Shown: piece after piece, positions 4,759-23,109 of the stretch | Layout: each line of letters opens with the position of its first letter | How positions within the stretch are numbered: the first letter of the stretch is position 1 | Origin: a virus | Direction: 5' to 3' (one strand) | Length of the DNA stretch: 23,109 nucleotides | Virus record (IMG/VR): IMGVR_UViG_3300042453_003252 | Location: 1-23,109 of that record | Position numbers and translations under genes: made by a program | The notes under the pieces: generated by a model | Database searches by the model: none | What the model saw: only the letters and a program-made list of their open reading frames with translations | Told to the model about the DNA's origin: nothing

Positions 4759-6912
4759 TTAGCCTGCCGATTGTTGAACTTCGGAGACCACAAACTGGAT
4801 CGCAACGAAGTACAAGGTGGTAGCAAGTTTAATCTCTACACTCACGGACATGGTCGGGCCGCTGATGCTGACCTTCGCATTCTTGTAACCCGCAGGAGCA
4901 TCACTGCTACCAGTGATGAGCTTGAGCTTGTAGTATTGATCCATCTTGCTGGAGAGGAAAGCGAGACCCGAGGATGCGCTGACATCTGCCAGAGATTGAC
5001 CAACGAAAGTGTTTTGGAAGCTCTGGGCAAGATCAAGGGAGACAACATCGGCTGCATAAACAGCTTGGAGGCTGTTGTACACGAAGTTCGTGTCGTATCC
5101 GTAGGTAGTCTGGTCAGACACCCACTTGTTCCCTGCGATCGAAGCCTGAAGGATCAGGAGACCAGAGAGGAGAGCTTGCTCAACATCGCTTGGGGATCCA
5201 CTGTCAAAGTCGGAAGGATCAACATAGCTGATCACATTCGCGAACTTGTTGGTGATTCCCTTGTAGAACCCAGCCGCTTGCATACCCGCTGCCACACATG
5301 CGCTGTACCAAGGCTGGTACTGAACCACATTGCCCTGACTGTTGATCTGATTGACATCTTGGAATGCCATCGAGCAACGGTAGTTGGCGATGCCCTGAGA
5401 GGCCGCAGCCGCATTTGCGAAGGTTCCCTTGAACGAGAGAACACCCTGACGGTTACGCTTCAGGATCGGAGTGGACATCGAGATACAGTGATTCTTGGTC
5501 GCCGTATTGATGGCCGCGATGGTGTAGGTCGAGCTTGGAGCTGTCACGCCAGCAGTGATGTCCGCAGTGGCATCTTGACTGAACAGAGGAACCACGAAGT
5601 TGGTCGCAACACCTTCGAGAGTAGCGATCGCACTCACAAAATTTGCTCCAGAGGTTCCGCCCCTAGCACCGCCCGTAAAGAAGGTGTAGTTTGCAGTAAC
5701 GATCGGCAATCCGCCAGTAGCGGTCGCGGTGAAGTCCACCGTGGTGCTTTGGAGGAGAGCGTTTTTGAAGTTGATCAAACCACGCTTTACTCGACCAGCG
5801 CAAAGTCCAGTCCCACTAGATGCGATTGGCAGGGCAGTAACCTTGTCAAGTGCGGATGGAGACAACTGACTTCCAGCGGGAGGGATAACGCAAGTAAAGC
5901 CAGTCTTCACATTGATCCAGCTTGCCAAATCGGTCAAGGTAGTGAATTGGGACAGGGGAGCTGTAAAGGATGCTCCCGATCCACCCACGACTGTGACAGC
6001 AATGTCGCTGTTGTCGATAGTCAGCAACGCCGAAGTTCCAACATACCCAAGGGTGAAAACAACATCAGCCGAAGCGGTGAGGGTCTCATTCGCGCCAGTG
6101 GTTGCGTTTGATACCAAAAGGTTTACGGAAGGTTCAGCCGAGGAGATGTACAAACCAGCAACGAGGCCGAGTTTTGCAAGATCACCAGAGGTAGAGTCGA
6201 ACAATTCGAGTGATTTACCCCATGCCTTGCCGTTAGCAGCCGCATCGGAGTTGTAAGTAAGGACGAGTCTGTTGGTTACACCCGCGCTTGCGGTTACAGG
6301 CACAGTGGCAGCCGTCAAAAGACCGTTCACTTCGGCCACGAGAGTAGCGATATCTGAGTGGTTAGCAGGGGTTCCCGAGAGGGTGATGACAACGGCTGCA
6401 CTTCCGCTATAGCGGATCGTAAAACTAACACCGTTAAGAGCTGCGCCGAAACTTGCGATCGTTGCTCCAGTGATCACGGGGGCAACTTCGGCTTGTGCCG
6501 CAGTTACCTTGTACTGGGTGTTGTTTCCAATAACTCCTGCGACCTTTTGGGAGATAGATCCGTAGGTGGTAGCAAGAGTTGCCGAAGCCTTGGTTCCAGT
6601 GTTGGTCTTGACCACATAGATCAGGCTTGGAGCCCCAGTGATCCCAGTGTCATTGCTGGGAGCGGTAAGGGCGCGGAAAGCATCAACAATTTGGCCAGAA
6701 GTGTACTTCGATACGATTGCATCGAGCTGGTCTGGGCCATAGGCGTTATTCTTGGGAAGATCGGTGGTGTAGGATTCGCCACCATCGGCTTCACCGACGA
6801 TTGCGACAATCCCGTTCGCAGCGATCCCAAGCGATGTGTTTTGAACAGTGTATTGACTGTACGCACCGGGGACGGATGTTACAACAAATGAGGTTGCTAG
6901 TTGCTGGGCCAT
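4759..6912 (-). CDS. Contractile tail sheath protein (717 aa)
   Basis: This is the subunit of the contractile sheath that drives the tube through the host envelope. Length 717 aa, slightly above T4 gp18 (659 aa). The N-terminus has FVVTSVPGAYSQY followed by GIAANGIVAIVGEADGGES, the usual start of sheath subunits. A long Gly/Ala/Thr-rich beta region (about 130-440) would be the protruding domains. The C-terminal third (from residue 514, SMAFQDVNQINSQG) holds the conserved sheath core: a PWYSACVAAGMQAAGFYKGI segment, LLSGLLILQ, and a final strand pair ending FVAIQFVVSEVQ that normally swaps between neighbouring subunits. It has the best ribosome site in the window (AAGGAG). It is followed by the tube gene, confirming the contractile-tail assignment. 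Confidence 0.93.
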   Translation of the reverse strand: MAQQLATSFVVTSVPGAYSQYTVQNTSLGIAANGIVAIVGEADGGESYTTDLPKNNAYGPDQLDAIVSKYTSGQIVDAFRALTAPSNDTGITGAPSLIYVVKTNTGTKASATLATTYGSISQKVAGVIGNNTQYKVTAAQAEVAPVITGATIASFGAALNGVSFTIRYSGSAAVVITLSGTPANHSDIATLVAEVNGLLTAATVPVTASAGVTNRLVLTYNSDAAANGKAWGKSLELFDSTSGDLAKLGLVAGLYISSAEPSVNLLVSNATTGANETLTASADVVFTLGYVGTSALLTIDNSDIAVTVVGGSGASFTAPLSQFTTLTDLASWINVKTGFTCVIPPAGSQLSPSALDKVTALPIASSGTGLCAGRVKRGLINFKNALLQSTTVDFTATATGGLPIVTANYTFFTGGARGGTSGANFVSAIATLEGVATNFVVPLFSQDATADITAGVTAPSSTYTIAAINTATKNHCISMSTPILKRNRQGVLSFKGTFANAAAASQGIANYRCSMAFQDVNQINSQGNVVQYQPWYSACVAAGMQAAGFYKGITNKFANVISYVDPSDFDSGSPSDVEQALLSGLLILQASIAGNKWVSDQTTYGYDTNFVYNSLQAVYAADVVSLDLAQSFQNTFVGQSLADVSASSGLAFLSSKMDQYYKLKLITGSSDAPAGYKNAKVSISGPTMSVSVEIKLATTLYFVAIQFVVSEVQQSAG

Positions 6913-7212: not shown

Positions 7213-7213
7213 A

Positions 7214-8143: not shown

Positions 8144-8190
8144 GGCTGTTTGTAAGATTGTTGCCTGCTAAAAAAAGAAGCAAAAACAAC

Positions 8191-8198
8191 TACTTATA
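8191..8198 (-). promoter_or_regulatory. Possible late-promoter-like TATAAGTA box
   Basis: On the minus strand TATAAGTA differs by one base from the T4-type late promoter TATAAATA. It lies about 50 bases upstream of the 309-aa gene, in one of the few gaps of this operon, and overlaps the stop of the 70-aa gene. It is a single occurrence with no matching element at other gaps, so it may be chance. Confidence 0.25.
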
Positions 8199-8406
8199 CC
8201 TTTCTCTGTTTTAGGGCAGGATTTTTTGGCTGACTTGGCATTCCCATGGGCTTTGGGGCTTTTGGGAGATTCTGTTTGGGAGCCATTCCCAGCTTTGCCT
8301 GAGCTTGCTGTTGCTTCATGTCGTGAGCGGTAGCCAAAGGGTTAGTTTTGGATACACGAGATTTGGACAATAGCTTACTGAGCTTGTCAAGATTGGGGTG
8401 CTTCAT
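8194..8406 (-). CDS. Small basic Pro/Lys-rich protein (70 aa)
   Basis: A 70-aa protein rich in Lys, Pro, Gln and Met, probably disordered. It begins with a short amphipathic helix (HPNLDKLSKLLSKSR) and its C-terminal half (NLPKAPKPMGMPSQPKNP) resembles the basic tail of the adjacent 309-aa protein. The ATG overlaps the stop of the 332-aa gene (ATGA) and is preceded by GAGGAT, which supports real translation. Function is not recognised; it could be a small internal or DNA-binding virion protein, or a spun-off piece of the 309-aa protein family. Confidence 0.65.
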   Translation of the reverse strand: MKHPNLDKLSKLLSKSRVSKTNPLATAHDMKQQQAQAKLGMAPKQNLPKAPKPMGMPSQPKNPALKQRKV

Positions 8407-9401
8407 AGATCCTCGATGGTGAGCCAGCTTTGGTTTGTGTTGATCAGGTAATCAGGGCTGGTCAAATTGCTCGAAATGAAAATACCACTTAGGCCAGTTG
8501 GGGCGACACCCCCAGAAGGAGTAATCTTACTGGTAAGGTTCACCGACTCGATCACTCGGTACGGAGTCTTGAGCCAAGAGTTTTCGACCATCCCCGTCAG
8601 GCTGATGAAACGAGAGTATACCGTCTCAGGCAATCCGTAATTTGGGTTGGGGGAGAGGTCGCCACGGCTAAACGAGCTAAGGTTGAACCCCCGAGCCTCG
8701 AGAAGGGATTCGCGATATCTGAGGAGGATGTAGGTTATGATCGCATCGAGCCAGAGGAGGGGTGCTGGATCCCCGTGGATATGGCAACCAATCTGGTATG
8801 ACTCTTGGAAGAACGATCTCTCCCTTCGTGCCTTGTAAAACTGAAACTGGGGGATAATCCCATAGCTTGATCCAGAGAATACCCCTGACACATCAAGCGT
8901 AAGGGTTCCTGCCCCAACATTTGTAATCACATAGCCCACGCCCGTTGAGGGGTTTACGAGGATCATTCCTGCGGTAACCGAGCCCAAGTTTATTTCAGAC
9001 GGAATAGTCAAAACAGATGTGCTTGCGTCAAAGGCAAGGGGTGAGAATGGGCGAACAATATATGGAATGGGCTTACCGATGTCGAGGGGCATCAGGATGT
9101 TCACCTCGGGGGATAGATCCCCAAGGCTTTTCATGTCGTTGACTTCACTCGAGGAGCCAAGCCCAATGGTAATCAGAGGGAATTGATCGTCCTTACGATA
9201 GCGAAGCACGGTTGCAATATTGTTATTGATGAACCAATCCTTGGCGTTCTCGATTTCTTTCTGGCCATACTCTGTGTTGAGGATGGGGATGCTCACAAGG
9301 TTCGAGAAGACATCGTTGAGGATCCAAACATTGTTCCTCATGTCCTCGATCCCTTGTTGGATCGCCTTTTTAATTAGTACATCACCTGCCCAGATTGCCA
9401 T
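8403..9401 (-). CDS. Neck / tail-terminator-type virion protein (332 aa)
   Basis: The N-terminal half (residues 10-100) reads IQQGIEDMRNNVWILNDVFS, then YGQKEIENAKDWFINNNIAT and FPLITIGLGSSSE, a pattern I associate with phage proteins encoded between head-completion and sheath genes. A beta-rich insert (about 120-190) is followed by HIHGDPAPLLWLDAIITYIL and LLRYRESLLEARGFN (about 208-240), also typical. The placement between the gp10-like protein (9402-10169) and the sheath suggests a role in ending the tail or joining it to the head. The ATG directly follows the upstream TGA, giving TGAATG, with ACGGAG as ribosome site. Assignment to neck or terminator is by context and remembered family resemblance. 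Confidence 0.75.
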   Translation of the reverse strand: MAIWAGDVLIKKAIQQGIEDMRNNVWILNDVFSNLVSIPILNTEYGQKEIENAKDWFINNNIATVLRYRKDDQFPLITIGLGSSSEVNDMKSLGDLSPEVNILMPLDIGKPIPYIVRPFSPLAFDASTSVLTIPSEINLGSVTAGMILVNPSTGVGYVITNVGAGTLTLDVSGVFSGSSYGIIPQFQFYKARRERSFFQESYQIGCHIHGDPAPLLWLDAIITYILLRYRESLLEARGFNLSSFSRGDLSPNPNYGLPETVYSRFISLTGMVENSWLKTPYRVIESVNLTSKITPSGGVAPTGLSGIFISSNLTSPDYLINTNQSWLTIEDL

Positions 9402-10169
9402 TCAAACTCCGTATTTCTCAAAAATTTGAGGAAGGATCTCGGTATCGAAGGTAGCCATGGCCCATTCAAAACACTCATCCATGATGTGGGCTCCCTCGAG
9501 GCCGGGGTAATGCCACTTCTCTGGAGGAGAGTTATCTGAGATCGTTCTAAAAGTCATGACATCGCGCCTAACCTTACCGCCCTCTCCTTCTCTTTGATAG
9601 ATTGTCACGCCATGAAGAGCTGGATGGCTTGCGACCACCTGTCCTGATTTACGGGCAGGGCGTTCGGAGGGGATATTAAAAGAGTGGAGGCGACCCAGAC
9701 GAGGAGACCCATTGGGGTTGAGTTCGATCTTTTTGTAGGGGATGTTCCGCTTCTTCAGCTCTTTCCTGATCAGATCAGTATAGAACTTAGCTTGGCTACT
9801 CTGCTCACTCGGATTTTTTGAATGTTCAAAAGGGATGGCCTTGTATCTTGCACCATCCTTTGAGGTCTTATACCCGCTCTTGAGAAGTGTATTCCTCATG
9901 TCGTAGGCATCAAGCCCCTCATCTCGCCAGACCATGGGCTTCAAAAGACTTACGACCCAAGTTCCTTCAGCAATCTCCTCATACTTGAGATTGTTAATGA
10001 ACTTCATCTTGGTCGTATTGAGCTTCTGATCGGCAAGCTCGATTGCCTTGGCGTGAGTAGCTAGGGCCGTGTTCTGAGCGGCTCTGTTGACTTCATATTC
10101 AATTTCTTCTTTGAAGCTCTCAAGCTCTCTGGTCAGCGCATCGAGATCAATGAAAAACCTGTGACCCAT
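9402..10169 (-). CDS. Tail completion / neck protein, HK97 gp10-like type (255 aa)
   Basis: The N-terminal helix (residues 8-50, ALTRELESFKEEIEYEVNRA...) is followed by a segment with WVVSLLKPMVWRDEGLDAYD and a C-terminal region ending HYPGLEGAHIMDECFEWA (about 219-236) then FDTEILPQIFEKYGV. A leading helix that pulls in a beta core, plus the W.hPG.eg...m..a..Wa terminus, is the style of gp10-like tail-completion proteins. Its start codon overlaps the previous stop by one base (TAATG). It lies immediately before the 332-aa neck/terminator-type gene, as expected for connector proteins. Length is longer than classic HK97 gp10, so an added domain is likely. Confidence 0.7.
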   Translation of the reverse strand: MGHRFFIDLDALTRELESFKEEIEYEVNRAAQNTALATHAKAIELADQKLNTTKMKFINNLKYEEIAEGTWVVSLLKPMVWRDEGLDAYDMRNTLLKSGYKTSKDGARYKAIPFEHSKNPSEQSSQAKFYTDLIRKELKKRNIPYKKIELNPNGSPRLGRLHSFNIPSERPARKSGQVVASHPALHGVTIYQREGEGGKVRRDVMTFRTISDNSPPEKWHYPGLEGAHIMDECFEWAMATFDTEILPQIFEKYGV

Positions 10170-10372
10170 TAGAACCTCTTGTGGGTAAGGTTGCCCACTG
10201 AATCGAGAGCCATACCAATTCGAGCCTCAACATACTTGAGTCTTCCAGTGTTCTTATCTCTAAACTTCATATAGCCTCTTGGATTTACCCCACCCTCTGG
10301 GAGGGGCTTTGGAGCTACATGCTTTGTCGTCTGCTTTGCGGGAAGTTGGCTTGGGGATTTTACGCCCTTCAA
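10169..10372 (-). CDS. Small basic hypothetical protein, TTG start (67 aa)
   Basis: A short reading frame between the 837-aa gene and the gp10-like gene. The only start near the 5' end is TTG at 10372-10370, overlapping the 837-aa gene's stop (TTGA); the next ATG would give only about 33 residues (GYMKFRDKNTGRLKY...). The N-terminal part is Pro/Lys-rich and the C-terminal part contains a two-strand-like MKFRDKNTGRLKYVEARIG segment. The one-base stop/start overlap with the next gene supports it being translated, but the start is uncertain. Function unknown. Confidence 0.55.
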   Translation of the reverse strand: MKGVKSPSQLPAKQTTKHVAPKPLPEGGVNPRGYMKFRDKNTGRLKYVEARIGMALDSVGNLTHKRF

Positions 10373-12882
10373 GCCTTCATTGAATCCTTCGACTTTTTTT
10401 TTAAGCCGTACTTCGCTTTGATGGATCCAGCGATCTTAGCAGCCCGCTCCTTGGAGTAACCCTGACGCACCAGCTTCTCGTGCATTTTGGTAAAGCTCGC
10501 CTTTTTCTTCATCCCTTCTTCGGACTTAGGGAGGTCTGGCTTGGGCATAGATTTGAGGTCAGCAAGGGCTTGTTTGTGGCTTTCCTTGTAGTTTCCACCC
10601 ATGCCGATATTTCGATTCCTGTTTTTGGTATCTTGAGTCAGCATGGTTTTAGGGAAAGATGGATTTACGCCCTTCATTGAATTTTTTGGCAATCCAACTC
10701 CCAAAATTCGATCCGAGGCTTGGGCAAGTTTGGTTGTTGGTTTAGAGTGCATAGTTTCTTTTGATTGGCGAATGTTTCTCTGATCTCGATTAGAAATCTT
10801 CATCTTATCGCTCATGCCCTCTTCAAACTTAGCCTTACGCATCTCCGACTTACCCATGGGCTTGTACTTCCCACCGCTCATCAGGTGGTGGAAGTGTTCT
10901 ACGGCTTCGGGATGGGAGCCGGGGCTCACATGAAAACTCGCATGGCTATGCTCGCCAGAGTGCATATCAATGTGTGGATCGACCGTGGTGTACCAGTCCC
11001 TGCCACCTTGAGGGGGGTAGGAAGAGGCTTCTACGGGGCCATAATGACGCATGATGTGTTCGTGGATCTCTTCTGGGCTTCCTTCGATCTCGTCGTGTGG
11101 TTCGGGGTCATATTCCGAGCCTTCAGGATCGTCAGGATGCGTGGTTTGAACATAGGCGTGAACCTTCATTTGGTGAGGATGAACACCATCTTCTTCAGAC
11201 ATCATCATGTCTTCATGTTCGCCATGGCCAAGCTCGTGTTGCAAAAAGTGGCTGGTGTCAGCAATGTCATTTGCAGCTCGGGTGATCTTTGATTTAACCC
11301 AGTCTGGAAGGTCGTCGTGTTCAAAGTCAACCACTCCAAGAAGTTCCTTGATGTGGTGCGTAATTTGATCGAGTTGTGATCCTGCCATACGGCTATCGTG
11401 ATCTTCGTCGAGACCGCTCTCAGCTTTGTTCATCATCCCCATGATCTTGTTGCGACGATGAAAGTCTTCTTTCACCTTCGGATCAACCTTGGAGTGGTGC
11501 ATTACCTTGTAAGCGGAAGCGGGTTCACGCTGATCTTTGGAAGCATCGACGGCATCAGACTTAAACTCGTTACCGCCGTGGATTTCTCCAGTCGCCTTGT
11601 GAACGATGTAGTAGTTGTACTTGTCGGACTTGTCAGCTTTGTTGAGAGGCTTCTTCACCTTCTCAGACTTCTGGGCGGGCTTGCTTTGGAGTCCTTTTGC
11701 AGCCTCAATCAGGTTCTGGAGAAGTCCAATCATGGACTGGTAAAGCTCTGGGTTTGAGCCCTTGATTTGATCAATCAAGTCCTTGTTCTGCTTAAACATT
11801 TCAAGGTTCTGGGCGATACGCTGTTTCAACTCTTCTTTTTTCTCGGGGCCAACATCTTGAGCCATCTCTGCGTAATCGGGGGCTTCGCCTTCTGGCTGTT
11901 CTCCTTCGCCGTCAACGGATTCGCCAGAAGGATCAGTTTCTTCAGGCATCTCGTCATCCATGTCTTCCATGCGGTCGTCGTGGCTTTCATCGAGACGGCC
12001 CAAAGCAATTTCTTTGGCATCGGCTTCACGGTTGTCTTGAGCGTTTGTAGTGGGGTCTTCGCCAGCGACTGGGGCAGACTCATCGATGTCGGCTTTTCCG
12101 ACATCGTCTTCTTCTTCCTCATGTTCGTCGGACTCGGGAAGCTCGATCTCTTCCTCATCGCCGTAATCGCCCATATCTTCATCGCCCATGTCTTCCATGT
12201 CACCATAGTCGGCCATGTCGTAGTCTTCGTCGGAGTAGTCTTCATCGCCCATGTCTTCGTCGGAGTAGTCTTCATCAGACATCTCTTCTTGGGGCATATC
12301 TTCATCTGCGTGATGAATCATGAAATCATCGCCCAGATCGGAACTTTCATCGCCCATGTCTTCGTCGGAGTAGTCTTCGTTCTCGGGGTTCATCTCCCCT
12401 TCGCCAGACTCATCCATGTGGGAGAGGTAGTGGTCGTATTCTTTTTGTTCGTTAGGGTTGCCTCCACCCATCTCACCTTGCTCTTTGGCATTAGAGATGA
12501 TGTGTTCGATCTCTTCAGAGGCTTCAGGGTAGCTCATCACCTTGTTCTTGCCAGAGAACTTCCCTGCGATCAGGGCTTTCTCAGCTTGGGACAAGGTATT
12601 GCCACAACCGATAGTCACGGTGAAGCCCGAAGCGAGTTCGATCTCATGCTTCAGTTCTTCAAGGTTTTCACAGAGTTCGGGGCTACCGAAGGCACGGAGT
12701 TCATCCCCACCTGCGTCAATTACAGTACCGCCCTTGCTTTCCACCCAATGACGGGCATTCTGAATCCCAGCTTCGATATGAAGGGATGCGTCATGGAGAG
12801 CGGAGAGGTCATCCATCAGGGTTGCTTGGCCGATCTTCTGACCAGCATTATCAAGGTCGAGTGCGATAAATGAGCGTTGCAT
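10369..12882 (-). CDS. Mosaic protein: GGDEF/mCpol-like cyclase domain, acidic scaffold-like stretch and small modules (837 aa)
   Basis: Residues 1-120 look like a palm-type nucleotidyl cyclase: ALDLDNAGQKIG (7-18) supplies the D.D metal site, DAGGDE (56-61) matches the GG-D-[ED] loop, then FTVTIGCG (87-94) and AEKALIAGKFSGKNKV. This is closer in style to mCpol/Cas10 than to classic diguanylate cyclases. Residues 150-345 are extremely acidic with repeats of YSDEDMGDE; 345-400 are helical. Then come an alpha/beta module (421-467), a helical LPDWVKSKITRAA module (499-556) also in the 390-aa gene, a His/Pro-rich domain (560-675), an LKSMPKPDLPKSE module (762-788) shared with the 309-aa protein, and a basic tail with YSKERAAKIAGSIKAKYG. 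K[SA]E motifs at 405, 486, 678 and 786 separate the modules. Role inferred: head-internal, scaffold-like carrier of an enzymatic domain. Confidence 0.85.
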   Translation of the reverse strand: MQRSFIALDLDNAGQKIGQATLMDDLSALHDASLHIEAGIQNARHWVESKGGTVIDAGGDELRAFGSPELCENLEELKHEIELASGFTVTIGCGNTLSQAEKALIAGKFSGKNKVMSYPEASEEIEHIISNAKEQGEMGGGNPNEQKEYDHYLSHMDESGEGEMNPENEDYSDEDMGDESSDLGDDFMIHHADEDMPQEEMSDEDYSDEDMGDEDYSDEDYDMADYGDMEDMGDEDMGDYGDEEEIELPESDEHEEEEDDVGKADIDESAPVAGEDPTTNAQDNREADAKEIALGRLDESHDDRMEDMDDEMPEETDPSGESVDGEGEQPEGEAPDYAEMAQDVGPEKKEELKQRIAQNLEMFKQNKDLIDQIKGSNPELYQSMIGLLQNLIEAAKGLQSKPAQKSEKVKKPLNKADKSDKYNYYIVHKATGEIHGGNEFKSDAVDASKDQREPASAYKVMHHSKVDPKVKEDFHRRNKIMGMMNKAESGLDEDHDSRMAGSQLDQITHHIKELLGVVDFEHDDLPDWVKSKITRAANDIADTSHFLQHELGHGEHEDMMMSEEDGVHPHQMKVHAYVQTTHPDDPEGSEYDPEPHDEIEGSPEEIHEHIMRHYGPVEASSYPPQGGRDWYTTVDPHIDMHSGEHSHASFHVSPGSHPEAVEHFHHLMSGGKYKPMGKSEMRKAKFEEGMSDKMKISNRDQRNIRQSKETMHSKPTTKLAQASDRILGVGLPKNSMKGVNPSFPKTMLTQDTKNRNRNIGMGGNYKESHKQALADLKSMPKPDLPKSEEGMKKKASFTKMHEKLVRQGYSKERAAKIAGSIKAKYGLKKKSKDSMKA
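12241..12273 (-). repeat. 33-bp direct repeat in the acidic region, copy 1
   Basis: Identical 33-base copies at 12241-12273 and 12346-12378 encode the acidic phrase around DYSDEDMGDE in the 837-aa protein. They lie inside a larger set of imperfect GAT/GAA/GAC-rich repeats. This is a coding low-complexity repeat able to expand or contract in frame, not an independent element. Confidence 0.8.
12346..12378 (-). repeat. 33-bp direct repeat in the acidic region, copy 2
   Basis: Second exact copy of the 33-base unit at 12241-12273, 105 bases away (35 codons, so in frame). It encodes the same acidic phrase. Confidence 0.8.
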
Positions 12883-12885
12883 ATA

Positions 12886-13686
12886 TTACCTTTTTTTCTC
12901 GCGCAGGGCTTCAAGAACAAGCGCGATGTTCTCTGGTTGCCATCCACGGCTGAAGGAAACCTTCAGGTTACCATCTTCGGACTTCTTGAGGTAAACCTTC
13001 TTATTGCGATCTTGGCCAAGACACACACAGCTAGACCATACGCCGTTGCCAATCAGTTGTTGGCCACAGTCAGGGCAATCGACGGTGCTAGACTTGGAGA
13101 GGTTGATTACCTGATAAGATTTCTTTACTTTGTCTTTCTTATCGAGGAAATCCTTGAGGGGGATTGCATGGACATTTTCGCCATGGAGGGGAACTTTGTC
13201 ATTCTTTTCCTGATCGGGCTTCTTACGGATAGCGTCTTCGATCTCTTTTTGGATCTTCTTTTCTTTTTCGGGGTCGAGTCCAGATGGCTTGGAGAGGTCG
13301 GAGACATCGTACAGCTCGAAGGTGGACATGATGACGAGCCCGAGACCCGGTATCGTGCGATACTTAAATGTGGCGATGATCCGTCCGTCTTCGGTGATCT
13401 CACCGCTGTAAACATCTGCTGCAAACTTGGTGACCGACAGGACAGCAATCGGATCGACTGGGAGCTTGATCTTCTTGGATTCCCCATCTTTCATGGGGTG
13501 AAGCTCCTTTCTCAGCATCGACATGATCGTGTTGGGGACGATCTTCATGCCGTAGAAGATTTCGTCCAATCCCGCAACGGTATCAGTCTTGATCTTGTAA
13601 AGGTCGGCTTTCACTAGGCGTTCGAGAGTCTCTTCACCCAGAGCTTTTGCGAGAAATTTGATTTGTTTCGATTCAGTCTTTTTCAT
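12886..13686 (-). CDS. Conserved phage protein with C-terminal zinc ribbon (266 aa)
   Basis: Residues 1-125 form an alpha/beta domain (helical start, then DGRIIATFKYRTIPGLG strands). A charged Lys/Glu-rich linker (130-185) follows. Residues 204-222 hold a four-cysteine zinc site, CPDC ... CVC, followed by KKVYLKKSEDGNLKVSFS and a terminal helix. I recall phage proteins with the same C-terminal CPDCG...C.C.G plus two-strand-helix arrangement, of unknown function. The KKSE at 235-237 sits in a beta hairpin rather than a linker. The gene begins after a 61-base gap that holds an inverted repeat, and ends 3 bases before the 837-aa gene. It may assist head assembly or nucleic-acid handling; this is not established. 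Confidence 0.8.
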   Translation of the reverse strand: MKKTESKQIKFLAKALGEETLERLVKADLYKIKTDTVAGLDEIFYGMKIVPNTIMSMLRKELHPMKDGESKKIKLPVDPIAVLSVTKFAADVYSGEITEDGRIIATFKYRTIPGLGLVIMSTFELYDVSDLSKPSGLDPEKEKKIQKEIEDAIRKKPDQEKNDKVPLHGENVHAIPLKDFLDKKDKVKKSYQVINLSKSSTVDCPDCGQQLIGNGVWSSCVCLGQDRNKKVYLKKSEDGNLKVSFSRGWQPENIALVLEALREKKR

Positions 13687-13696
13687 ATTGCTTACC

Positions 13697-13737
13697 CTTA
13701 GATTGTTTTGTTACAAAAATGTCAATGAAAACAATCT
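13697..13737 (-). promoter_or_regulatory. Inverted repeat and possible promoter upstream of the 266-aa gene
   Basis: A perfect 10-bp inverted repeat (AGATTGTTTT at one end, AAAACAATCT at the other, 18-base loop; 13700-13737) fills most of the 61-base gap between the 304- and 266-aa genes. On the same strand TTGACA (13720-13725), a 17-base spacer and TCTAAG (13697-13702) resemble a sigma-70 promoter. Transcription from it would begin near 13690 and leave the AAGGG ribosome site out of the message, so hairpin leader and promoter are competing readings. Confidence 0.4.
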
Positions 13738-13747
13738 GTTAATAGGA

Positions 13748-14662
13748 TTACTCCTCATCGATGCTTGCCATGTTGACTTGAACAGACCCATCATTTGTAA
13801 TAGATTGCGATGGGGCTTCATTAACCCTATTGCTTCGAGGCTGGGTCTGGGTGATTGGCTTTGAGCTGTTGTTTTGGTTGAAGTAAACATATTCCCTTTG
13901 AACCACAAGGTGGTAGGGTAGGCGTTCAGGGGTACGAACCCCATCCTTGGTGACATTGGTGATCCTGACTTCGTTGGGGATCTGGGCAATATACCAGTGA
14001 GCCTTGTATAGGTATCGGATGGCGTAGATGCGTCCTTTGCCAGTTTCTGGGTCGATGCCCGGGTTCTTACCCCCAGCGATCCACTCAATCAAGCCGTCCT
14101 TATTTACTTTGAAGTCCACATTCTGGACATAGTTTATCCCCCTCGAGTCAGTCAAAAACTCAACCTTGCATATTGGATACTGAGCTTGGTCTGGCTGATC
14201 CACATTGTATTCCATCTTGTGGTAGTCAGGGACATACACATCGGCATCTTTGTCCGCGATGTAAAGGCGATCGCCAACGGCTGGGTAGATTCTTTCGCCA
14301 TTGGCCACTCCTGTCGAGGTGTCATAGAAGCGAGGCAGGATCAGGCGGGCGGTTGAGTCGTCAAGGATACCCGCATCGCCCCATCGAGGAGAGGTGGAGT
14401 TGCTCACAAAGGTAGCCGTAAAGCAACCCGAGGCTTTATAGATCATCCCGTTTGATGCAATCGTATCGATTGTGTCTGGGCGACGAAAATCTCCCCTATC
14501 CTTGAGGCCAAGGGGGGAAGGGATGGCCTTAAAGTGCGTAAGCTGGACTCCAAGCCCCGTGGGGAATTGATCCATTTTCGTCAAATCGAATGACGCTTGG
14601 AATAGATCCCCTGCGGTCGGTAGGGTTGGGACTTGTTGTCCGACTGGCTTGCGCTTTGGCAT
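13748..14662 (-). CDS. Virion structural protein, probable head/neck (304 aa)
   Basis: A 304-aa beta-rich protein. The first 20 residues are basic and Pro-rich. The central portion contains WGDAGILDDSTARLILPRFYD, VGDRLYIADKDADVYVPDYH and KVEFLTDSRGINYVQNVDF, and the later portion IEWIAGGKNPGIDPETGKGR and YLYKAHWYIAQIPNEVRI, ending with ERLPYHLVVQREYVYF (about 250-265) and a polar tail. I recognise this order of motifs from virion proteins of other large phages encoded near the portal and neck genes, but no specific function is assigned. GGAG ribosome site; the ATG abuts the TAA of the 67-aa gene. No enzymatic motif is seen. Confidence 0.75.
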   Translation of the reverse strand: MPKRKPVGQQVPTLPTAGDLFQASFDLTKMDQFPTGLGVQLTHFKAIPSPLGLKDRGDFRRPDTIDTIASNGMIYKASGCFTATFVSNSTSPRWGDAGILDDSTARLILPRFYDTSTGVANGERIYPAVGDRLYIADKDADVYVPDYHKMEYNVDQPDQAQYPICKVEFLTDSRGINYVQNVDFKVNKDGLIEWIAGGKNPGIDPETGKGRIYAIRYLYKAHWYIAQIPNEVRITNVTKDGVRTPERLPYHLVVQREYVYFNQNNSSKPITQTQPRSNRVNEAPSQSITNDGSVQVNMASIDEE

Positions 14663-14866
14663 TTATTTCTCCAAACACTTTTCTATCTGCTCGAATTTGT
14701 TGGACATTACCCTCTCAGCCCAGAGAATCCTTTGAAATGTCCAGTGAAGTAAGAGTTCCTTCTGCACTTCCTTACAGACCTTTTTAAGTCCGCTCGTGTT
14801 CGATGCTTTCAAGTAGAGGGGATAGATCACATCGTTAAAGTTTTCATGGGCTTCAAGGGCACTCAT
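14663..14866 (-). CDS. Small helical hypothetical protein (67 aa)
   Basis: This 67-aa protein is almost entirely helical by composition, with aromatic and Leu-rich faces (LLLHWTFQRILWAERVM). It starts 2 bases after the 167-aa gene's stop with an AGAGG ribosome site and ends flush against the 304-aa gene. It is probably translated as part of the operon. No family is recognised; it could be a small assembly factor or adaptor. Confidence 0.65.
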   Translation of the reverse strand: MSALEAHENFNDVIYPLYLKASNTSGLKKVCKEVQKELLLHWTFQRILWAERVMSNKFEQIEKCLEK

Positions 14867-14868
14867 AT

Positions 14869-15372
14869 TTACCTCTGGATGATTACATCCTTACCTTCGG
14901 TTGTCGCCATTTGAATGATGATGGAGGCGATCGCCCTTTCAGCCCCAGTCAGGGCTTTCTTGGTCGTGGGCTCAATGATGAATGCGCCTTCCGATGGGGT
15001 TACTTCGTATTTTGTCAGTTCCACTTCGTTTTTTGAAACGATAAAAGCTGACTTGCCTTCGTCCACCAGCTTTACAAGAGAGTAGCTTTGGTCTCGAAGG
15101 TCTTGGGGGAGGGACTTGGTCAGGTCGATTACATCTGCGTCCTTGAAATGCTCAGACTTCATCATGGAAGCCTTAAACGAGGGGAAAGTCTTCTTGATAT
15201 TGTAACGCACAATGGCAGGGTGGGATCCAGAGGCCAGAACCTCCTCCTTGCCTTTATTCTTGCCCACGCCCATCCAGAGACCACCCGTGGTACGGGCGAG
15301 CCTGACGGGGTAATCGTCGAGGGTTCCAATTTCTTCTACGGTATCAATTTCAGAGGGTAAAATTCCAATCAT
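14869..15372 (-). CDS. Hypothetical virion-region protein (167 aa)
   Basis: The N-terminal half carries YPVRLARTTGGLWMGVGKNKG and HPAIVRYNIKK, looking like a beta barrel or small alpha/beta fold. Then comes a helix with an MMKSEHF phrase (about 70-76) and a C-terminal region with LTGAERAIASIIIQMATTEG. An AAGGAAA ribosome site lies just upstream of the ATG at 15372. No family is recognised. Its place between the repeat protein and the 304-aa structural protein suggests a head- or neck-associated role. Confidence 0.65.
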   Translation of the reverse strand: MIGILPSEIDTVEEIGTLDDYPVRLARTTGGLWMGVGKNKGKEEVLASGSHPAIVRYNIKKTFPSFKASMMKSEHFKDADVIDLTKSLPQDLRDQSYSLVKLVDEGKSAFIVSKNEVELTKYEVTPSEGAFIIEPTTKKALTGAERAIASIIIQMATTEGKDVIIQR

Positions 15373-15383
15373 AGTCGGTTTCC

Positions 15384-17678
15384 TTAAAAGTCGTATTGAG
15401 GGTTTCGTGCGGAGCGGTGCATCACATCGAGTATACCATTGAGTTGGCTTTCTGTGATCGGGGTAGGTAATCCGCCCATTCTACTCGCGATCTCTTTTTT
15501 GTGGTCTTGGTGGATCTTCTCTCGATCCTCGGGACTGGTTTTGGGGTTATAGGAAGCATAAAGCCTGACGCTATGCCAAGGGTCGTTCATCATTTTTTGA
15601 TGAATTTCATCGGTAATCCTTGGATTACCAGCGAGTTTTTCCCTCAAGGAGGTATTTGAATGGTTAGCAAACTTTTCCTGCATCTCAGGATGAAGATTGC
15701 CGTTCAAAGCCATTGTTCCAGCTTGGGCTGGGCTTATCTTGTTGAAGAGCTTCCGCTGGGTAGATAGCGACAGAGATTGGTTTGCAACAAAAGAGGTTGG
15801 TATGGTATGAAAATCTGAGATTTCTTTCTGGATGGATGGGTCAAGAGACTTGTTGCCCGCAAGGTGCGCGATTTTTAGCCAGTCACCCGCCCTCCCCGAG
15901 TAAGCCGATGGATCACTGATCTCTTTTTCAGGGTTGTGGCGATCGAAAATCTCTCTCTGCAAGTCAGGGTGAAGGCTTGGGTTCGACAAGAGGTTGTTCA
16001 TAGCTCGGCTGCCACTGTCAGTATGTTGCAACTTATCAAGTTGATTATACAGTCGTCTTTGTAAAGAGAGCAATGCTGGTGTGTTCTCCGCATATCGCTC
16101 TAGGGTGTCCGCAACGGCTTCCAGATGATGGGCTCTAAGTCTTCCTTTTTTCTCTTCAGTCTTGTAGAGGGGCTCAGACTTTTTCAATGCTCTTCGTTTC
16201 AGGTTGATACGCATGCTCTCCTGAACTTCGGGGTCTTTGTCGTTCAATAGTTTTTCATGGACGCTTGGGTGAAGGTTGGGATGAAGAGCCATGTTAGCAC
16301 GAACCTCCCAATTTTTGTCGTCCGCTAGTTTCTCGTGAAGACTCGGATGAAGGTTGGGATTTCCAGCGAGTTCGTGCCGAACCCATAAATTTTTGTCGTT
16401 TGCCAGTTTTTCCTGAATGCTTAGGTGAAGGTTAGGATTTTGGGCAATTGAATAGCGGATGTAGATATTTTTGTCGTTTACGAGCTTCTCGTGAATGCTC
16501 GGGTCGAGATTCGGATTCTTTGCCGTAGTCATGCGGACTTCATCATCCCCATCGTTTGCCAGTTTTTCATGTAGGCTAGGGTGAAGGTTAGGGCTTTTGG
16601 CAACCAAATTGCGAAGATAGGGTTTTGTGCTATATGCAAAATCCTCTTGGAGACTCAAAGGGGGGTTCCCCTCTTCAACAATCATGTGTAGGTGTTCGTC
16701 CCTCAACCTGCGTTTGGGGGGTTCGGCTTTGTAGAGGGGCTCGAACTTACTCATGGGCTTATAGGAAGGGTTTCTTTTCATCGAATCCCTGACCTTGCTT
16801 GGGGGTTCTGCTTCGGACTTTTTCATTGCCATAAAGTCCCTGAGCTTTCTGTGATGCTCTCTTGTAATCTGAGGGCTATAATTGTCTCTTAGGTTTTGCC
16901 ATACCGCCCAATGATGATGGGGTATCAGTCGCTCAAAAACACTAGGGTAAAGATTTTCGTTATCAGATAGGCTTATGGCGACATCTCCATCTGGAGAGTC
17001 ACGGTCAAGCAATTTGTGTTGCTCTTCTTCTGTGAGATCAGGATTGCCCGCAATTTTTTGCTGAACCCAGCGGGCTTTATGATTTACGAGTTTTTGACGA
17101 ACGCTAGGGTCTAACCCTTTTTTTCTGGCAAGTCCGCCAGCAATGGAGGTATATATATTGTCCGCAAAGGCGTGTTGTAGGTGTAGTGGTAAATTATTTT
17201 CTTTTAATTTGTTTTCCGCCCAATTGCTGTAATTGGGGTAGCTCGCCCACTTCGCCTCAAGCTCAGGGGTTGGGTTGTTGATTCGTTCTTTTTGAGCGGA
17301 GCTGATATTTGGTATTTGCAGAAATATTTGATGAACATCGGGATGAGGATGATCCTTCATGATATCTGCAATTTGCGGGTTCGTGCTAGCTCTACGAGCA
17401 AGTAATAGGGGCACATCAGAATCAGGATGGTTTACCAGATTTTTGATTGCGTCCCAGTGTAGGTTTTTTTGACTATGTATAAGGCGATATGCCACCTTTG
17501 CCGAGGGATTAGAGGCCAACTTTTTTTGAATGGATGGATGAAGATTGGGTTTTTGGGCAATAGTATCGAAATGTTCCTCCCTCAACCTGCTTTTTGGGGG
17601 CTCGGCTTTGGCAAAATGTTCCCCGTGGAACATTTCTTCCCCTTTAAGCAGTAGTGTTAAGAGACCTTCATATTTCAT
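15384..17678 (-). CDS. LRV/HEAT-like repeat protein in three blocks (764 aa)
   Basis: This protein is built of about 26-residue helical repeats of the type NPNLHPSLHEKLANDKxxxVR, matching the leucine-rich-repeat-variant (LRV) pattern. The clearest copies are five tandem ones at residues 362-491, with a degenerate copy before them and scattered ones in 41-280 and 560-720. Three blocks each open with K[AST]E followed by K.RLR..H: residues 24-36, 317-329 and 506-518. Extra KKSE motifs at 287-289 and 500-502 mark block ends. The expected shape is three superhelical binding arms. The start codon overlaps the 390-aa gene's stop (ATGA), so the two are likely translationally coupled. No catalytic motif is visible; a protein- or nucleic-acid-binding role is inferred. 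The K[SA]E linkers suggest processing. Confidence 0.85.
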   Translation of the reverse strand: MKYEGLLTLLLKGEEMFHGEHFAKAEPPKSRLREEHFDTIAQKPNLHPSIQKKLASNPSAKVAYRLIHSQKNLHWDAIKNLVNHPDSDVPLLLARRASTNPQIADIMKDHPHPDVHQIFLQIPNISSAQKERINNPTPELEAKWASYPNYSNWAENKLKENNLPLHLQHAFADNIYTSIAGGLARKKGLDPSVRQKLVNHKARWVQQKIAGNPDLTEEEQHKLLDRDSPDGDVAISLSDNENLYPSVFERLIPHHHWAVWQNLRDNYSPQITREHHRKLRDFMAMKKSEAEPPSKVRDSMKRNPSYKPMSKFEPLYKAEPPKRRLRDEHLHMIVEEGNPPLSLQEDFAYSTKPYLRNLVAKSPNLHPSLHEKLANDGDDEVRMTTAKNPNLDPSIHEKLVNDKNIYIRYSIAQNPNLHLSIQEKLANDKNLWVRHELAGNPNLHPSLHEKLADDKNWEVRANMALHPNLHPSVHEKLLNDKDPEVQESMRINLKRRALKKSEPLYKTEEKKGRLRAHHLEAVADTLERYAENTPALLSLQRRLYNQLDKLQHTDSGSRAMNNLLSNPSLHPDLQREIFDRHNPEKEISDPSAYSGRAGDWLKIAHLAGNKSLDPSIQKEISDFHTIPTSFVANQSLSLSTQRKLFNKISPAQAGTMALNGNLHPEMQEKFANHSNTSLREKLAGNPRITDEIHQKMMNDPWHSVRLYASYNPKTSPEDREKIHQDHKKEIASRMGGLPTPITESQLNGILDVMHRSARNPQYDF
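16206..16595 (-). repeat. Five tandem 78-bp in-frame repeats (LRV units)
   Basis: Five consecutive 78-base units (26 codons) encode the tandem LRV copies at residues 362-491 of the 764-aa protein. Phrases such as HPSLHEKLANDK recur with changes concentrated at the positions before and after VR. A sixth, degenerate unit precedes them. These are protein-coding repeats, not a CRISPR array. Confidence 0.8.
16693..16731 (-). repeat. Module-head duplicate (39 bp), copy 1
   Basis: Encodes the K-A-E ... K.RLR..H head of the second repeat block. It matches 17572-17610 at about 35 of 39 positions, so the two block heads share recent common origin at the DNA level. Confidence 0.65.
17572..17610 (-). 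repeat. Module-head duplicate (39 bp), copy 2
   Basis: Partner of 16693-16731; encodes the head of the first repeat block (AKAEPPKSRLREEH). Confidence 0.65.
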
Positions 17679-18847: not shown

Positions 18848-18850
18848 CCT
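18842..18850 (-). promoter_or_regulatory. Shine-Dalgarno site favouring the second ATG of the PcfJ-like gene
   Basis: AGGATGAGG on the minus strand overlaps the first ATG (18847) and lies 3 bases before the second (18838). The first ATG has no site at normal distance, so initiation at 18838, giving a 387-aa product, is more likely. Confidence 0.5.
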
Positions 18851-18902: not shown

Positions 18903-21900
18903 TTACAGACCGCTTAGGTCTTCTGGCTTCAGGCTTTGGGAGCGGTTGTAGGCTTCCCGCCATTGCTTTTTGAGCTTGGCGATTGTTGTGTGATAGACCT
19001 TATCCCCTTGAAGAGGATTGTCTTTGAATTTTCTCGCGATCGATTCACGGAAATGCTTTCTCTTTTGAGGGTTTACCAAAAGGTCTCTAGCATGGGTCAA
19101 AAGCTCCTCGTTGAAATGTGAAGACTTGGCCTTGTATCCAACTCCCTGAATGAAGTCTGAAATATGCCCAAGGACATCTTGATCAAAGGCTCCGAGTACA
19201 TGGTTTCGAGCCTTGAGTGCCACCGCTGGGCCATACTTTTGACCGATCTTGTCGAAGATACCGTGAAGAGCCTCATGCTCAATCGTTGATTCGACAGTCT
19301 GTCCACGGAGTTTCTGTTGCGGAGCGGTTAGTTTTTCAGTCTTGATGCGAGCCTTGGAAGGGGCTCTTGGGGCTTTGAATTTTGGAGCATTCTTTTGGTG
19401 TTCCTCAAGCTCTCTATTTGCCTGATCGCGCTCTTGTGACCCCCAAGGAAAACTTCTTACTTTGTCCCGAATTTCACGCCACTTTTTATTGTGGGTATCA
19501 ACTTTGGCGTTATATGCAATCAGAGCTTCATTCCTTTTCTTGTTGTGTTCCACCATTTTATTGGCGTAGCTCTCATCGAAATCCTCAAACTTGGAACGAA
19601 GGGCTCCCCCTAAAGCTGACTGATAGGATCGTTGAGGCATATATGCTGGGTGGCCAACTTCGTAATTGACCCCGAGACGAGTGCGGTCAAAGGCTCCAGA
19701 GGCTGCGCTTTGAACTTTTTTTCTTTGTTGCGTAAGGTGTTCTTGGATGGCTTTCTCGCTCGCTCGAGGATTGTTGTGACGAACATACGCCTCGTATTGA
19801 GGGGAGACCTCTGCGGCTGAAACTTTCCTGCCAAAAATATCCTTTTGACGACCCGTGGTTAGGAGCTGGACATTCTGCTCGGCTCTAGGATCGGTCTTAA
19901 AATGAGGAAACCTCATCTTTGGGCGAGTCTTTTTGAGAGGCTCGGCCTTCATGAAGTAGTCGGAATCCTTGGCGGTCAGTTTCCTGCTGACCTTGGCGTT
20001 GTTGGTGAAGGGGTTGGCGTGGCTTGCAACCTTATCCCATGCTCTAGTTGCATCAGGAGAGCGTTGGTAGCCTTCGCTCATGAGTCCCTTACCGCCCTTT
20101 GACTTGGCGTGGGTGTTGGCAAGGTTCAGCATGTGCTGATAGATACCCTTGCCACGATGCTCGGGGGCGATCTCGGAGTTGTGTACGCCGAAGTACCCTG
20201 TCCTCTGCCAGCGTGGATCGGATGGGTCGGTCTCGGAATGTGGGCTTCCAAAGGATCGATTTGAGAAGGCAAGGTGACCGATCTTCTTACCCTTGTGATA
20301 AGCAATGACCCCTGCGCCAGTGTCGCCAAACCGTCTGCCACCCTCAAAGAGCTTGAAGCGATAGCCCTGATTGTGAATCTCGTCAGGGGAGAGCCCCTTC
20401 TTCATCTCTTTCAATTCACCCGACTGCTCTTTGATCTCTGCTTGGAGCTTGCGCTTAGTAGGGTGGCGCAGGACATCGAGGAGTTTTTTATGCTCCTTCA
20501 GGAACTGCTCTTTGGGCATGCGGATCTCTTCGGACTTGCCTACTGGCATCTTCCAGCGGGTAGAGTGGACTAGCCTTCCAGTGATCACATTGTGGGGATA
20601 TTGGTACGAGCCGATGTCTTTTCCTTGAAAGAATTTTTGGGCAAGCCTTTGATCGTCTGGGTGCATTTCGTGGAAGGGCTTGTAATTGTAGCGGAAGTCT
20701 TTACCGATATTTGTACTTAGCCGTGTAACATCAGATGCTTTGCGGAGGGTCTGCTCCCAAGTTGCCTTACCTTTAAGATTAGGGTTGTGCTGGGTCTTCA
20801 GTTGTCCATAGGTAGAAGGCTTGTACCCGAGCTTTGGAGGTTGTTGCCCATAGGTCGATCTCATGTGGGATGGGATAACAGAAGGATCCGAATACTTGAC
20901 CGCAATGTTGCTGTACGGACTGTTCTTCTTTTTGTGTTCTACTAGATCATCGCCTGCTTGGATATTATTCTGAGCTAGAAAGTTTTCGACATGTTTTCCC
21001 GCAACGCCCCAGTGATCCATATTTCGACCAACAAGTTTATTGTGCCTGTAATTGTCAACGGAATCATAGGTAACAACACCCTCGGGCTTGTTTTGAAGCG
21101 AGATGTTCCCTTTAGGAACTTCATTCCAGATATGAACATTTTTACCAGCATGGCCCGTATCCCTCAAATTTTGAAGGAAGGCTTCGTGGATCACTTGGTT
21201 GGGATTTTTATCTCCAAAAAGAATGCTCTGGATCTTCTCAAGATGGTGCTGTGGATACTTTTCACCCGCTCTGTTCAGAGCGATGTTGGCTTGATCTTGG
21301 GTGATTTGGCCATTAGCTACAGCGTCTTGGGCTTGCTTTTTTGCTTGCTTCACAAGATTCTGGCCAAAGTCGGATTGCACCTCATCGATGTGAATACCAT
21401 CGTCGCCTTTGGTGTAGCGCACCCAGCCAAGGGTATGTTCGTCTGTGGGGTGACCTGAGTACCTTGAGGCTTCCATCACATTGTCAAAAGTTCTATGAAC
21501 ACCAGCGTCCTCCATTGCCTTGCGATGCTCTGGGGTGGCCTTCAATTGGAATACTTGAGATTGCTCTGGGGTATGTTGCTGGTCGTCCAAAGCATCCTTA
21601 TATGCTTTGGGGTTAATTTGGTCAGGGTGGGGGTTGTCTTGTTCCCACTCATTCATCTTGTCGTCTACATAGCCTTGAGTAGCTTCACTAAGAGCATCAT
21701 CAAGAGCTTCTTGGTATCTTGGGAAATACTTATCATTGTCGAGATGTAAATCATGCTCCATTGCATGGTCGTACAGCTCATCTGTATCTACTTCGTGATC
21801 TTCGGGGAGTTCTGGGTGTGTTTTATTGTAATGTTCAAGGACTGCGTCTTCATCCATGAAATCGGAGGGAGAAATGTTTTCGTCGTATCCCCACCTGTGA

Positions 21901-23109
21901 GCATCTTCGTGTGCCTCATCCCTGTATTCATTTTCGGCTTCATCTCTTCTTCTGTGCCATTCGTCTTCGTCTGGCTGAAAGCCATGCTCATCGAAATCGC
22001 CGTACTCGGTATGGCCGACATTGTATTGGAGCTTGGGCTGGGACTGAATGTGCTGATGGACACGATCGGCTGAAAGCTGACCTTTGCTATCAAGTAAGTG
22101 GTTGATATTCAGGGCTTGTGGGTCGTAGCCTTGTTGCTTCAGGGCGTTCTTGTTGGCAACACCCCCATGGACATTGTTGATGTGGTCTCGAAGTTCACGG
22201 AGCTTGTTTGTGCCAAGGGCGACATGGACTTGGTTCTTGGGGTCGTAGCTTGGAGCTTCGTCCTTGCGGAGGAGTTCAAAGGACTCGGATTTTCCAATCC
22301 CATGGCGGATACGCAAGATGTCTTTTGCTCTTTGCTGAATATCGCGGGCAATCGGGGCTTTGGCAATTCGCTGGAGGGTCTCTGAGGAGGCATTGGGATG
22401 GTTCGCAACCCGATGCTGGTACTTGTCGTCGAAAGGGTACTTGTCCGAAATCCAGTCAAGGTCACCCGATGGAGTGGTATGATCATTTAGCATTTCGTCA
22501 AAAACTGGGAATGGATTCCATTTATTTTTCCATATCCTTTGATAGTTTTCAGGGCTCAGTTTTTTTCGATTTTCCAGATGTTTTTGAGCAACCCTGCTGA
22601 TGTCGGGATTTTTATGGTTTGCGTACTCCTCCACAATATGTTGCGGAGCGTTACGGTGTTCGGCAATGTCTTGTGCTGTACTATGATAGTCGGGGTGAAG
22701 TTCGGGGTGATATTTTCCAGTTGGGGTATTTATCTTTTCGTGAATTTTTTGAAGGACTTCTGGGCCAGCATTTAGGTTATAGGGAATATGGAATAAATAT
22801 TTTGGATCGTCCGCAAGGCGATTGAGTACGGATTGGCTTGTAGTTCCTCTAACCAACTGATCAACCAGATGGGGGCGAAGTCTGCCTTTTGGCGCACCTT
22901 GATTCTTGTCGGACTTCTGTAAGTCCGCTTCGGAGGCAATCCCTTTCTTCAGGCAATGCTCCCGCAAGGAACCGATGTTTTTTTTAACGGATTCAATGTG
23001 GGCTTCAAGGCTCTTCTTGGAAGGCTTGGTCTCGGCGATCTTCTTATTCGTCTTGGCATCGTAGATCACGACATGGGACTCACCATCGTGATCGCACTTC
23101 TCGAGCGCG
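18903..23109 (-). CDS. Giant polyvalent protein: repeats, EVQSD domain, GNAT, HEXXH metallopeptidase; 5' end cut by window edge
   Basis: The frame stays open from the first codon with start potential (GTG at 23069) through 13 more codons to the window edge, so the true start lies outside; residues are numbered here from that GTG. Residues 60-250 are degenerate LRV-like repeats beginning with KGRLRPH. Residues 500-840 form a domain with LGWVRYT and HIDEVQSD (560-567), which I recognise from other large-phage multi-domain proteins, function unknown. Residues 900-1015 look like a GNAT acetyltransferase, with EIAPEHRGKGIYQHM as the acetyl-CoA loop. Residues 1060-1388 contain HEALH (1265-1269) and a plausible third zinc ligand in EELLTHA (1321-1327), indicating a metallopeptidase. 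An acidic, charged stretch covers 350-500. GKSE (259-262), GKSE (844-847) and MKAE (1040-1043) fall between these domains. Confidence 0.85.
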   Translation of the reverse strand, partial: ALEKCDHDGESHVVIYDAKTNKKIAETKPSKKSLEAHIESVKKNIGSLREHCLKKGIASEADLQKSDKNQGAPKGRLRPHLVDQLVRGTTSQSVLNRLADDPKYLFHIPYNLNAGPEVLQKIHEKINTPTGKYHPELHPDYHSTAQDIAEHRNAPQHIVEEYANHKNPDISRVAQKHLENRKKLSPENYQRIWKNKWNPFPVFDEMLNDHTTPSGDLDWISDKYPFDDKYQHRVANHPNASSETLQRIAKAPIARDIQQRAKDILRIRHGIGKSESFELLRKDEAPSYDPKNQVHVALGTNKLRELRDHINNVHGGVANKNALKQQGYDPQALNINHLLDSKGQLSADRVHQHIQSQPKLQYNVGHTEYGDFDEHGFQPDEDEWHRRRDEAENEYRDEAHEDAHRWGYDENISPSDFMDEDAVLEHYNKTHPELPEDHEVDTDELYDHAMEHDLHLDNDKYFPRYQEALDDALSEATQGYVDDKMNEWEQDNPHPDQINPKAYKDALDDQQHTPEQSQVFQLKATPEHRKAMEDAGVHRTFDNVMEASRYSGHPTDEHTLGWVRYTKGDDGIHIDEVQSDFGQNLVKQAKKQAQDAVANGQITQDQANIALNRAGEKYPQHHLEKIQSILFGDKNPNQVIHEAFLQNLRDTGHAGKNVHIWNEVPKGNISLQNKPEGVVTYDSVDNYRHNKLVGRNMDHWGVAGKHVENFLAQNNIQAGDDLVEHKKKNSPYSNIAVKYSDPSVIPSHMRSTYGQQPPKLGYKPSTYGQLKTQHNPNLKGKATWEQTLRKASDVTRLSTNIGKDFRYNYKPFHEMHPDDQRLAQKFFQGKDIGSYQYPHNVITGRLVHSTRWKMPVGKSEEIRMPKEQFLKEHKKLLDVLRHPTKRKLQAEIKEQSGELKEMKKGLSPDEIHNQGYRFKLFEGGRRFGDTGAGVIAYHKGKKIGHLAFSNRSFGSPHSETDPSDPRWQRTGYFGVHNSEIAPEHRGKGIYQHMLNLANTHAKSKGGKGLMSEGYQRSPDATRAWDKVASHANPFTNNAKVSRKLTAKDSDYFMKAEPLKKTRPKMRFPHFKTDPRAEQNVQLLTTGRQKDIFGRKVSAAEVSPQYEAYVRHNNPRASEKAIQEHLTQQRKKVQSAASGAFDRTRLGVNYEVGHPAYMPQRSYQSALGGALRSKFEDFDESYANKMVEHNKKRNEALIAYNAKVDTHNKKWREIRDKVRSFPWGSQERDQANRELEEHQKNAPKFKAPRAPSKARIKTEKLTAPQQKLRGQTVESTIEHEALHGIFDKIGQKYGPAVALKARNHVLGAFDQDVLGHISDFIQGVGYKAKSSHFNEELLTHARDLLVNPQKRKHFRESIARKFKDNPLQGDKVYHTTIAKLKKQWREAYNRSQSLKPEDLSGL

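Follow-up and report, generated by a model that had tools for sequence, protein, structure and literature searches.

A minimal CRISPR polymerase-type domain encoded among the late virion genes of an SPO1/Mx1-like myovirus lineage

The minimal CRISPR polymerase (mCpol), a rare component of bacterial defence, produces the cyclic-dinucleotide signals of the anti-phage system Panoptes. The Panoptes synthase OptS is an mCpol without added Cas10 domains. According to two reports on it, residues D6 and D57 of OptS hold the metals, loss of D57 abolishes the product, and adenine is contacted by S30 and N34 (PDB 9nwn, 9mnr and 9pd0; PMC12657218, PMC12657230). GGDEF domains, which are also cyclic-nucleotide synthases, occur in late multidomain phage proteins of the polyvalent type, and it has been proposed that such domains disturb the nucleotide-based responses of the host or set these off to the detriment of rivals (Iyer et al. 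2017, PMC5512222). No published phage-encoded mCpol was found in the open-access papers searched.

The window, which is the whole stretch of DNA analysed, is a 23,109-nucleotide virus fragment (IMG/VR record IMGVR_UViG_3300042453_003252, positions 1–23,109) of an SPO1/Mx1-like myovirus. Genes and protein segments located by window coordinates are on the minus strand unless stated otherwise. An open reading frame at 10369..12882 encodes an 837-residue protein. Its start codon, the ATG at 12882, directly follows the stop of the preceding gene, and a Shine-Dalgarno-like AAAAGG (12889..12894) is positioned six bases before it. The protein begins with the mCpol palm domain, residues 1–120 (12523..12882). 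The subsequent low-complexity linker, residues 126–335 (11878..12507), is 42% aspartate and glutamate, has a net charge of −81, and is encoded by a segment with 15- and 30-bp tandem repeats. It is followed by a helical-hairpin segment, residues 336–412 (11647..11877), which has a counterpart in Myxococcus phage Mx1 and is conserved in the family (phmmer, 1e-9 to 1e-17 for residues 335–412 against relatives). The succession of mCpol, acidic linker and helical hairpin forms the core architecture of the family. The C-terminal half, residues 413–837 (10372..11646), is a lineage-specific mosaic: residues 680–837 are similar to the window's own 309-residue open reading frame, and residues 495–560, characterized by LPxWV, to its 390-residue open reading frame and to a cyanophage protein. 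Cyanophage DSL-LC02 was rejected as an mCpol relative, because the match covers the LPxWV segment only and the DSL-LC02 protein lacks mCpol. The tandem repeats of the linker, at 12166–12195 and 12220–12288, code for an acidic repeat of the DEDYSDEDMG type, and relatives have comparable low-complexity repeats (QDQYDQY, EEAPEEAP, TDQDM) at the equivalent place. A 368-residue open frame on the plus strand (11767–12873), antisense to the linker, is most likely not a gene but a side effect of the repetitive acidic coding sequence.

The preliminary description of the locus had placed a GGDEF- or mCpol-like palm fold at residues 1–120. The palm fold is confirmed and can be specified as mCpol, whereas no match to the GGDEF profile (PF00990) was found within the window. 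The Pfam mCpol profile PF18182 matches residues 5–118 with an E-value of 1.6e-11 and a score of 45 bits (cut-off 26.4) over its whole length (positions 1–114 of 114). The top phmmer matches among solved structures are two Panoptes synthase sequences, 9nwn and 9mnr, which align without gaps and are weak when taken alone (E-values of 0.018 and 0.044). The AlphaFold2 model of residues 1–130, built from an alignment of 20 phage sequences, has a mean pLDDT of 95.1 and a pTM of 0.88. The first six Foldseek matches of the model are OptS/mCpol chains, the best with an E-value of 2e-9 and a TM-score of 0.87 (by target length). The VIA aligner superimposes the model on OptS 9pd0 with a Z-score of 18.1 and 1.6 Å over 118 residues, and on the OptS structures 9mnr and 9nwn with Z-scores of 17.3 and 17.1. 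By contrast, the Z-scores for Y-family polymerases, GGDEF domains, class III cyclases and Cas10 do not exceed 12.8. Therefore, the domain is more than a generic palm, and its identity as mCpol is close to certain. GGDEF diguanylate cyclases share the superfamily fold, and a cyclase of this type is encoded in the late block of some of these phages; however, the window domain fits the mCpol profile and reaches a Z-score of only up to 12.7 with them. The Cas10/Cmr2 palm of type III CRISPR systems has the same palm core, and relatives of the window protein give weak Cas10-Cmr2_palm2 matches. However, Pfam detects a single mCpol palm in the window protein, with neither an HD nor a zinc domain nor a second palm, and the Z-score is about 12.4. 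None of the annotated genes of the window encodes a CRISPR-related protein, and PADLOC returned no match for the 837-residue protein.

The motifs LDLDN (residues 8–12), GGDE (58–61), VTIGCG (89–94) and AEKALIAGKFSGKNKV (100–115) follow one another in the order that had been described, and each of the features on which the preliminary description had staked its assignment is present: the palm fold, a match to the profile and the metal site. The domain resembles OptS along its whole length, in its fold, and in the positions of D6, D57 and S30. In the ungapped alignment to 9nwn and 9mnr, D9 (12856..12858) is the equivalent of the metal ligand D6 (PMC12657218), and D60 of the GGDE turn (12703..12705) is the equivalent of the catalytic D57. 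The serine S33 (12784..12786) corresponds to the base-contacting S30. By contrast, the adenine-contacting N34 is replaced by a glutamate, E37 (12772..12774), and the turn that reads GGDE in the window domain reads AADG in OptS. The metal-binding acidic residues are thus intact, as had been proposed, but by homology to D6 and D57 of OptS the pair does not consist of both aspartates of LDLDN. Ranked by conservation among 116 positions of the phage family, D11 is 4th, G59 5th, D60 11th, K108 13th and S33 19th. D11 is conserved even more than D9, but the consulted passages on OptS do not list it among the metal ligands. Position 37 ranks 102nd and is among the most variable; since it also carries glutamate in place of asparagine in the window domain, the nucleotides that are joined cannot be predicted from the sequence. 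The retained residues indicate that the mCpol domain is probably catalytically active.

The gene order of the window is that of an SPO1-type late block: a virion structural protein (phrog_1004; 13748..14662) homologous to a 272-residue protein of Mx1, a 266-residue protein (12886..13686), the mCpol protein, a 67-residue basic protein (10169..10372), a gp7.1-type protein (9402..10169), a gp7.2-type protein matching the Pfam family SP10_terminator (8403..9401), and the tail sheath (4759..6912). The 266-residue protein has the place and type of the 312-residue family of Mx1, and is the immediate upstream neighbour in most relatives. The 67-residue protein has a net charge of +10 and no membrane segment, and has homologues at the equivalent place in many relatives. 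The gp7.1-type protein, the constant downstream neighbour, is 33% identical to that of Mx1 and about 24–27% to those of Herelleviridae, and the tail sheath is 42.5% identical to the Mx1 sheath over 475 residues. In Herelleviridae, the place of the mCpol gene is vacant, with no gene between the head proteins and gp7.1. The late block of Mx1 (OR576727.2) is syntenic with that of the window, and its counterpart, annotated as a hypothetical protein, has the palm, linker and hairpin and is encoded just before gp7.1. It differs in that D9 and D60 of the palm are replaced by serine and alanine, and in that Mx1 has a separate GGDEF gene adjoining the prohead protease. Both the location of the mCpol copy among late virion genes and its fusion to an acidic segment had been recognized previously, whereas the description of the protein as scaffold-like did not hold. 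The gene in the scaffold position is a separate one, located in the interval between the prohead protease and the major capsid protein in Mx1, G010, G016 and G018, while the mCpol gene precedes gp7.1; therefore, the 837-residue protein is not the scaffold. The AT skew of the window is negative (about −0.1 to −0.3) from about 7000 to 23000; it is absent from the tail genes and sets in near 7 kb, at the transition from these to the block of neck and head genes.

Relatives were collected by scanning viral contigs with gp7.1 and with subsets of mCpol sequences, and a contig from a Planctomycetaceae metagenome-assembled genome (MAG), the window and Mx1 were added to them. A scan for close viral relatives with the single domain as the query gave no matches, and tblastn of the domain against named phages gave either no match at all or just Mx1 together with a single unconvincing fragment. 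The mCpol domain was found at 35 loci, 34 of them distinct, and in all 35 its gene is directly upstream of gp7.1, at a distance of no more than 290 bases or overlapping it. The adjacency also holds for the loci recovered by the mCpol query alone. Both D9 and D60 are retained at 28 of the 35 loci. D9 is replaced by asparagine in three relatives of one clade, and one or both catalytic aspartates are lost in Mx1, L028, L034 and L037, with most of the losses belonging to the Mx1 clade. A few relatives (L030/L031 and L038/L039) lack the domain. The dN/dS ratios of close pairs are 0.04–0.07, and the domain is under purifying selection in these pairs. The Mx1 clade is well supported in the gp7.1 tree (100/99), in which degenerate mCpol copies are paired with intact sisters, whereas in the tree of the short domain the degenerate copies group together on long branches. 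Because the two trees disagree, the catalytic losses in the Mx1 clade may correspond to between one and four events.

Separate genes of the diguanylate-cyclase GGDEF type, with the GGDE core retained, are present in Mx1, G018 (locus L034), G019 (L037) and G020 (L038). They follow a prohead-protease-type gene in all four phages (L002:1781-2512, G018:C1:76136-76492, G019:C1:53384-53686 and G020:C1:83178-83462), and that of Mx1 is annotated as a nucleotide cyclase. All four carriers are members of the Mx1 clade with a readable head module, and their mCpol is degenerate or gone. By contrast, none of the 11 distinct records in which a capsid gene accompanies an intact mCpol (G002, G003, G010, G016, G022, G026, G422, G423, G424, G425 and G428/G429), some of which are fragments, has a separate GGDEF gene. 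It is possible that the second cyclase relaxed the selection on mCpol, as this one clade suggests, and cyclase activity would then be the selected trait. No GGDEF gene was detected in the three relatives with the D9-to-asparagine change, one of which, G006, has a record that includes the capsid gene, and neither G014, a 166-kb relative, nor G015 has mCpol or the GGDEF enzyme. The function is therefore dispensable in some lineages.

For delivery of the enzyme with the particle, the indications are circumstantial. Domain types of injected polyvalent proteins (GNAT, ParB-like, ART-PolyVal, NUDIX and DUF5661) recur in the late block of these phages, and a protein of at least 1401 residues in the window (18903..23108) has weak matches to GNAT and to the polyvalent-associated LPD22. 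In L037:8149-9984, a degenerate mCpol palm is fused to DUF5661 and to an acetyltransferase-type GNAT domain, which is a polyvalent-protein architecture. The window protein likewise combines mCpol, linker, hairpin and C-terminal modules in one late-block protein. It resembles the polyvalent GGDEF proteins (PMC5512222) as a cyclic-nucleotide synthase within a late multidomain phage protein; however, its lineage uses mCpol at one fixed genome position, and its packaging is hypothetical. The chance that the 837-residue protein is packaged in the virion appears to be even.

The proposed explanation is that mCpol became integrated into a late virion-module protein of the SPO1/Mx1-like myovirus lineage and was retained as an active enzyme. 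Two copies would pair as in OptS, with D9 and D60 holding Mg2+ and the triphosphates, and the product would be a cyclic dinucleotide, which, because S33 is kept, probably contains adenosine, although its identity is speculative. The acidic linker and helical hairpin may anchor the enzyme at the head or neck; it would thereby be packaged and delivered together with the DNA in the manner proposed for polyvalent proteins. The product could then occupy or mislead cyclic-dinucleotide sensors of the host, such that, for example, a Panoptes-type effector stays restrained; this target is likewise speculative. Since almost all relatives keep an intact-looking mCpol in one place, the virus may make or imitate a host immune signal. 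That the domain is a catalytically active cyclase and that the phage employs it against or upon the host through a virion-associated protein is judged slightly better than an even bet. Action of the protein specifically on host immune signalling is a tentative proposal, somewhat short of an even chance.

The palm fold might instead have been reused as a structural element that helps to build or tether the head-neck region, with the catalytic residues a fading inheritance. The location of the gene among virion genes accords with such a role, as does the persistence of a detectable fold in Mx1, L034, L037 and L028 despite the loss of catalytic residues, with D11, G52, G92 and G94 kept in nearly all of these degenerate copies. 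However, D60, G59, K108 and S33 belong to the best-conserved columns of the whole family, the catalytic pair persists in 28 of the 35 copies, and the degenerate copies are those with longer branches. Moreover, Herelleviridae assemble the equivalent region without mCpol, and L030 and L038 also do without it. The near-universal retention, the purifying selection and the presence of GGDEF where mCpol is degenerate or gone, all read from sequence comparisons, speak for a genuine cyclase rather than for a role in assembly, and structural reuse is considered unlikely. A similarly low probability is given to an active cyclase that would remain in the cytoplasm of the cell in which it is made, affecting lysis timing, host physiology or the exclusion of rival phages. 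The late operon position is equally compatible with late synthesis, and action against rivals has also been raised for GGDEF domains (PMC5512222). However, an association with the particle is suggested by the fusion to a conserved acidic linker and hairpin, by the DUF5661 and GNAT domains in L037, and by the constant position beside gp7.1.

Because the domain belongs to the OptS family, the phage could also defend itself against competitors with a Panoptes system whose effector is encoded elsewhere in its genome. However, the window copy, unlike OptS, is encoded by a phage within a virion operon, is followed in its protein by an acidic linker and a hairpin, and has neither OptE nor CBASS beside it. 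The next gene, where a two-gene Panoptes operon would have the 2TM-beta effector OptE, encodes the soluble 67-residue basic protein. A hydropathy scan of the late block of the window revealed no protein of membrane type, and no Cap15-type effector was found in 15 phage records, a search in which the control genomes were equally silent. CBASS genes often adjoin Panoptes systems. The neighbours of the window gene are virion genes, whereas the nearest plasmid mCpol, from a Sulfitobacter plasmid, adjoins CBASS genes. A phage-borne Panoptes system is therefore highly improbable. The broadest form of the packaged-cyclase reading is that the whole myovirus lineage packages an active mCpol, that a cyclic dinucleotide made at entry holds off Panoptes-type guards or jams cyclic-dinucleotide immunity, and that a diguanylate-type cyclase replaces mCpol where it has decayed; in this full extent it is rather doubtful. 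If the packaged-cyclase reading is true, it would represent counter-defence through an added rather than a removed signal. The near fixation of a mostly catalytically intact mCpol at one virion-gene locus means that the phage side holds the same enzyme as bacterial defence. It raises the testable question of whether cyclic dinucleotides delivered by phages serve as counter-signals, a possibility proposed generally for polyvalent GGDEF domains. Mx1, a named isolate with a Myxococcus host, offers a practical entry point through its GGDEF gene.

The tripeptide K[SA]E is six-fold enriched in the scaffold proteins of relatives (46 observed against 7.8 expected; for example, L010:716-1501, L049:11046-11960 and L050:6631-7719) and may be the cleavage motif of the prohead protease in this phage group. 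A hydrophobic residue is often found two positions before the lysine of the scaffold tripeptides. The window mCpol protein contains four K[SA]E sites, at residues 405 (KSE, 11662..11670), 486, 678 and 786, which are candidate cleavage sites only. Because the enrichment is weak in the mCpol protein family (25 observed against 15.1 expected), these sites serve as a lead only. Four K[SA]E motifs also occur in a 764-residue LRV/HEAT-repeat protein of the late block (15384..17678).

The binning of one relative, L058, in a Planctomycetaceae MAG may be a hint at the host; mCpol was found in none of 391 other Planctomycetota genomes. A neighbouring 1216-residue protein of this contig (L058:1475-5125) combines DUF5661 and GNAT domains with a weak ParB-like match, an architecture that, by its predicted domains, fits an injected polyvalent protein.
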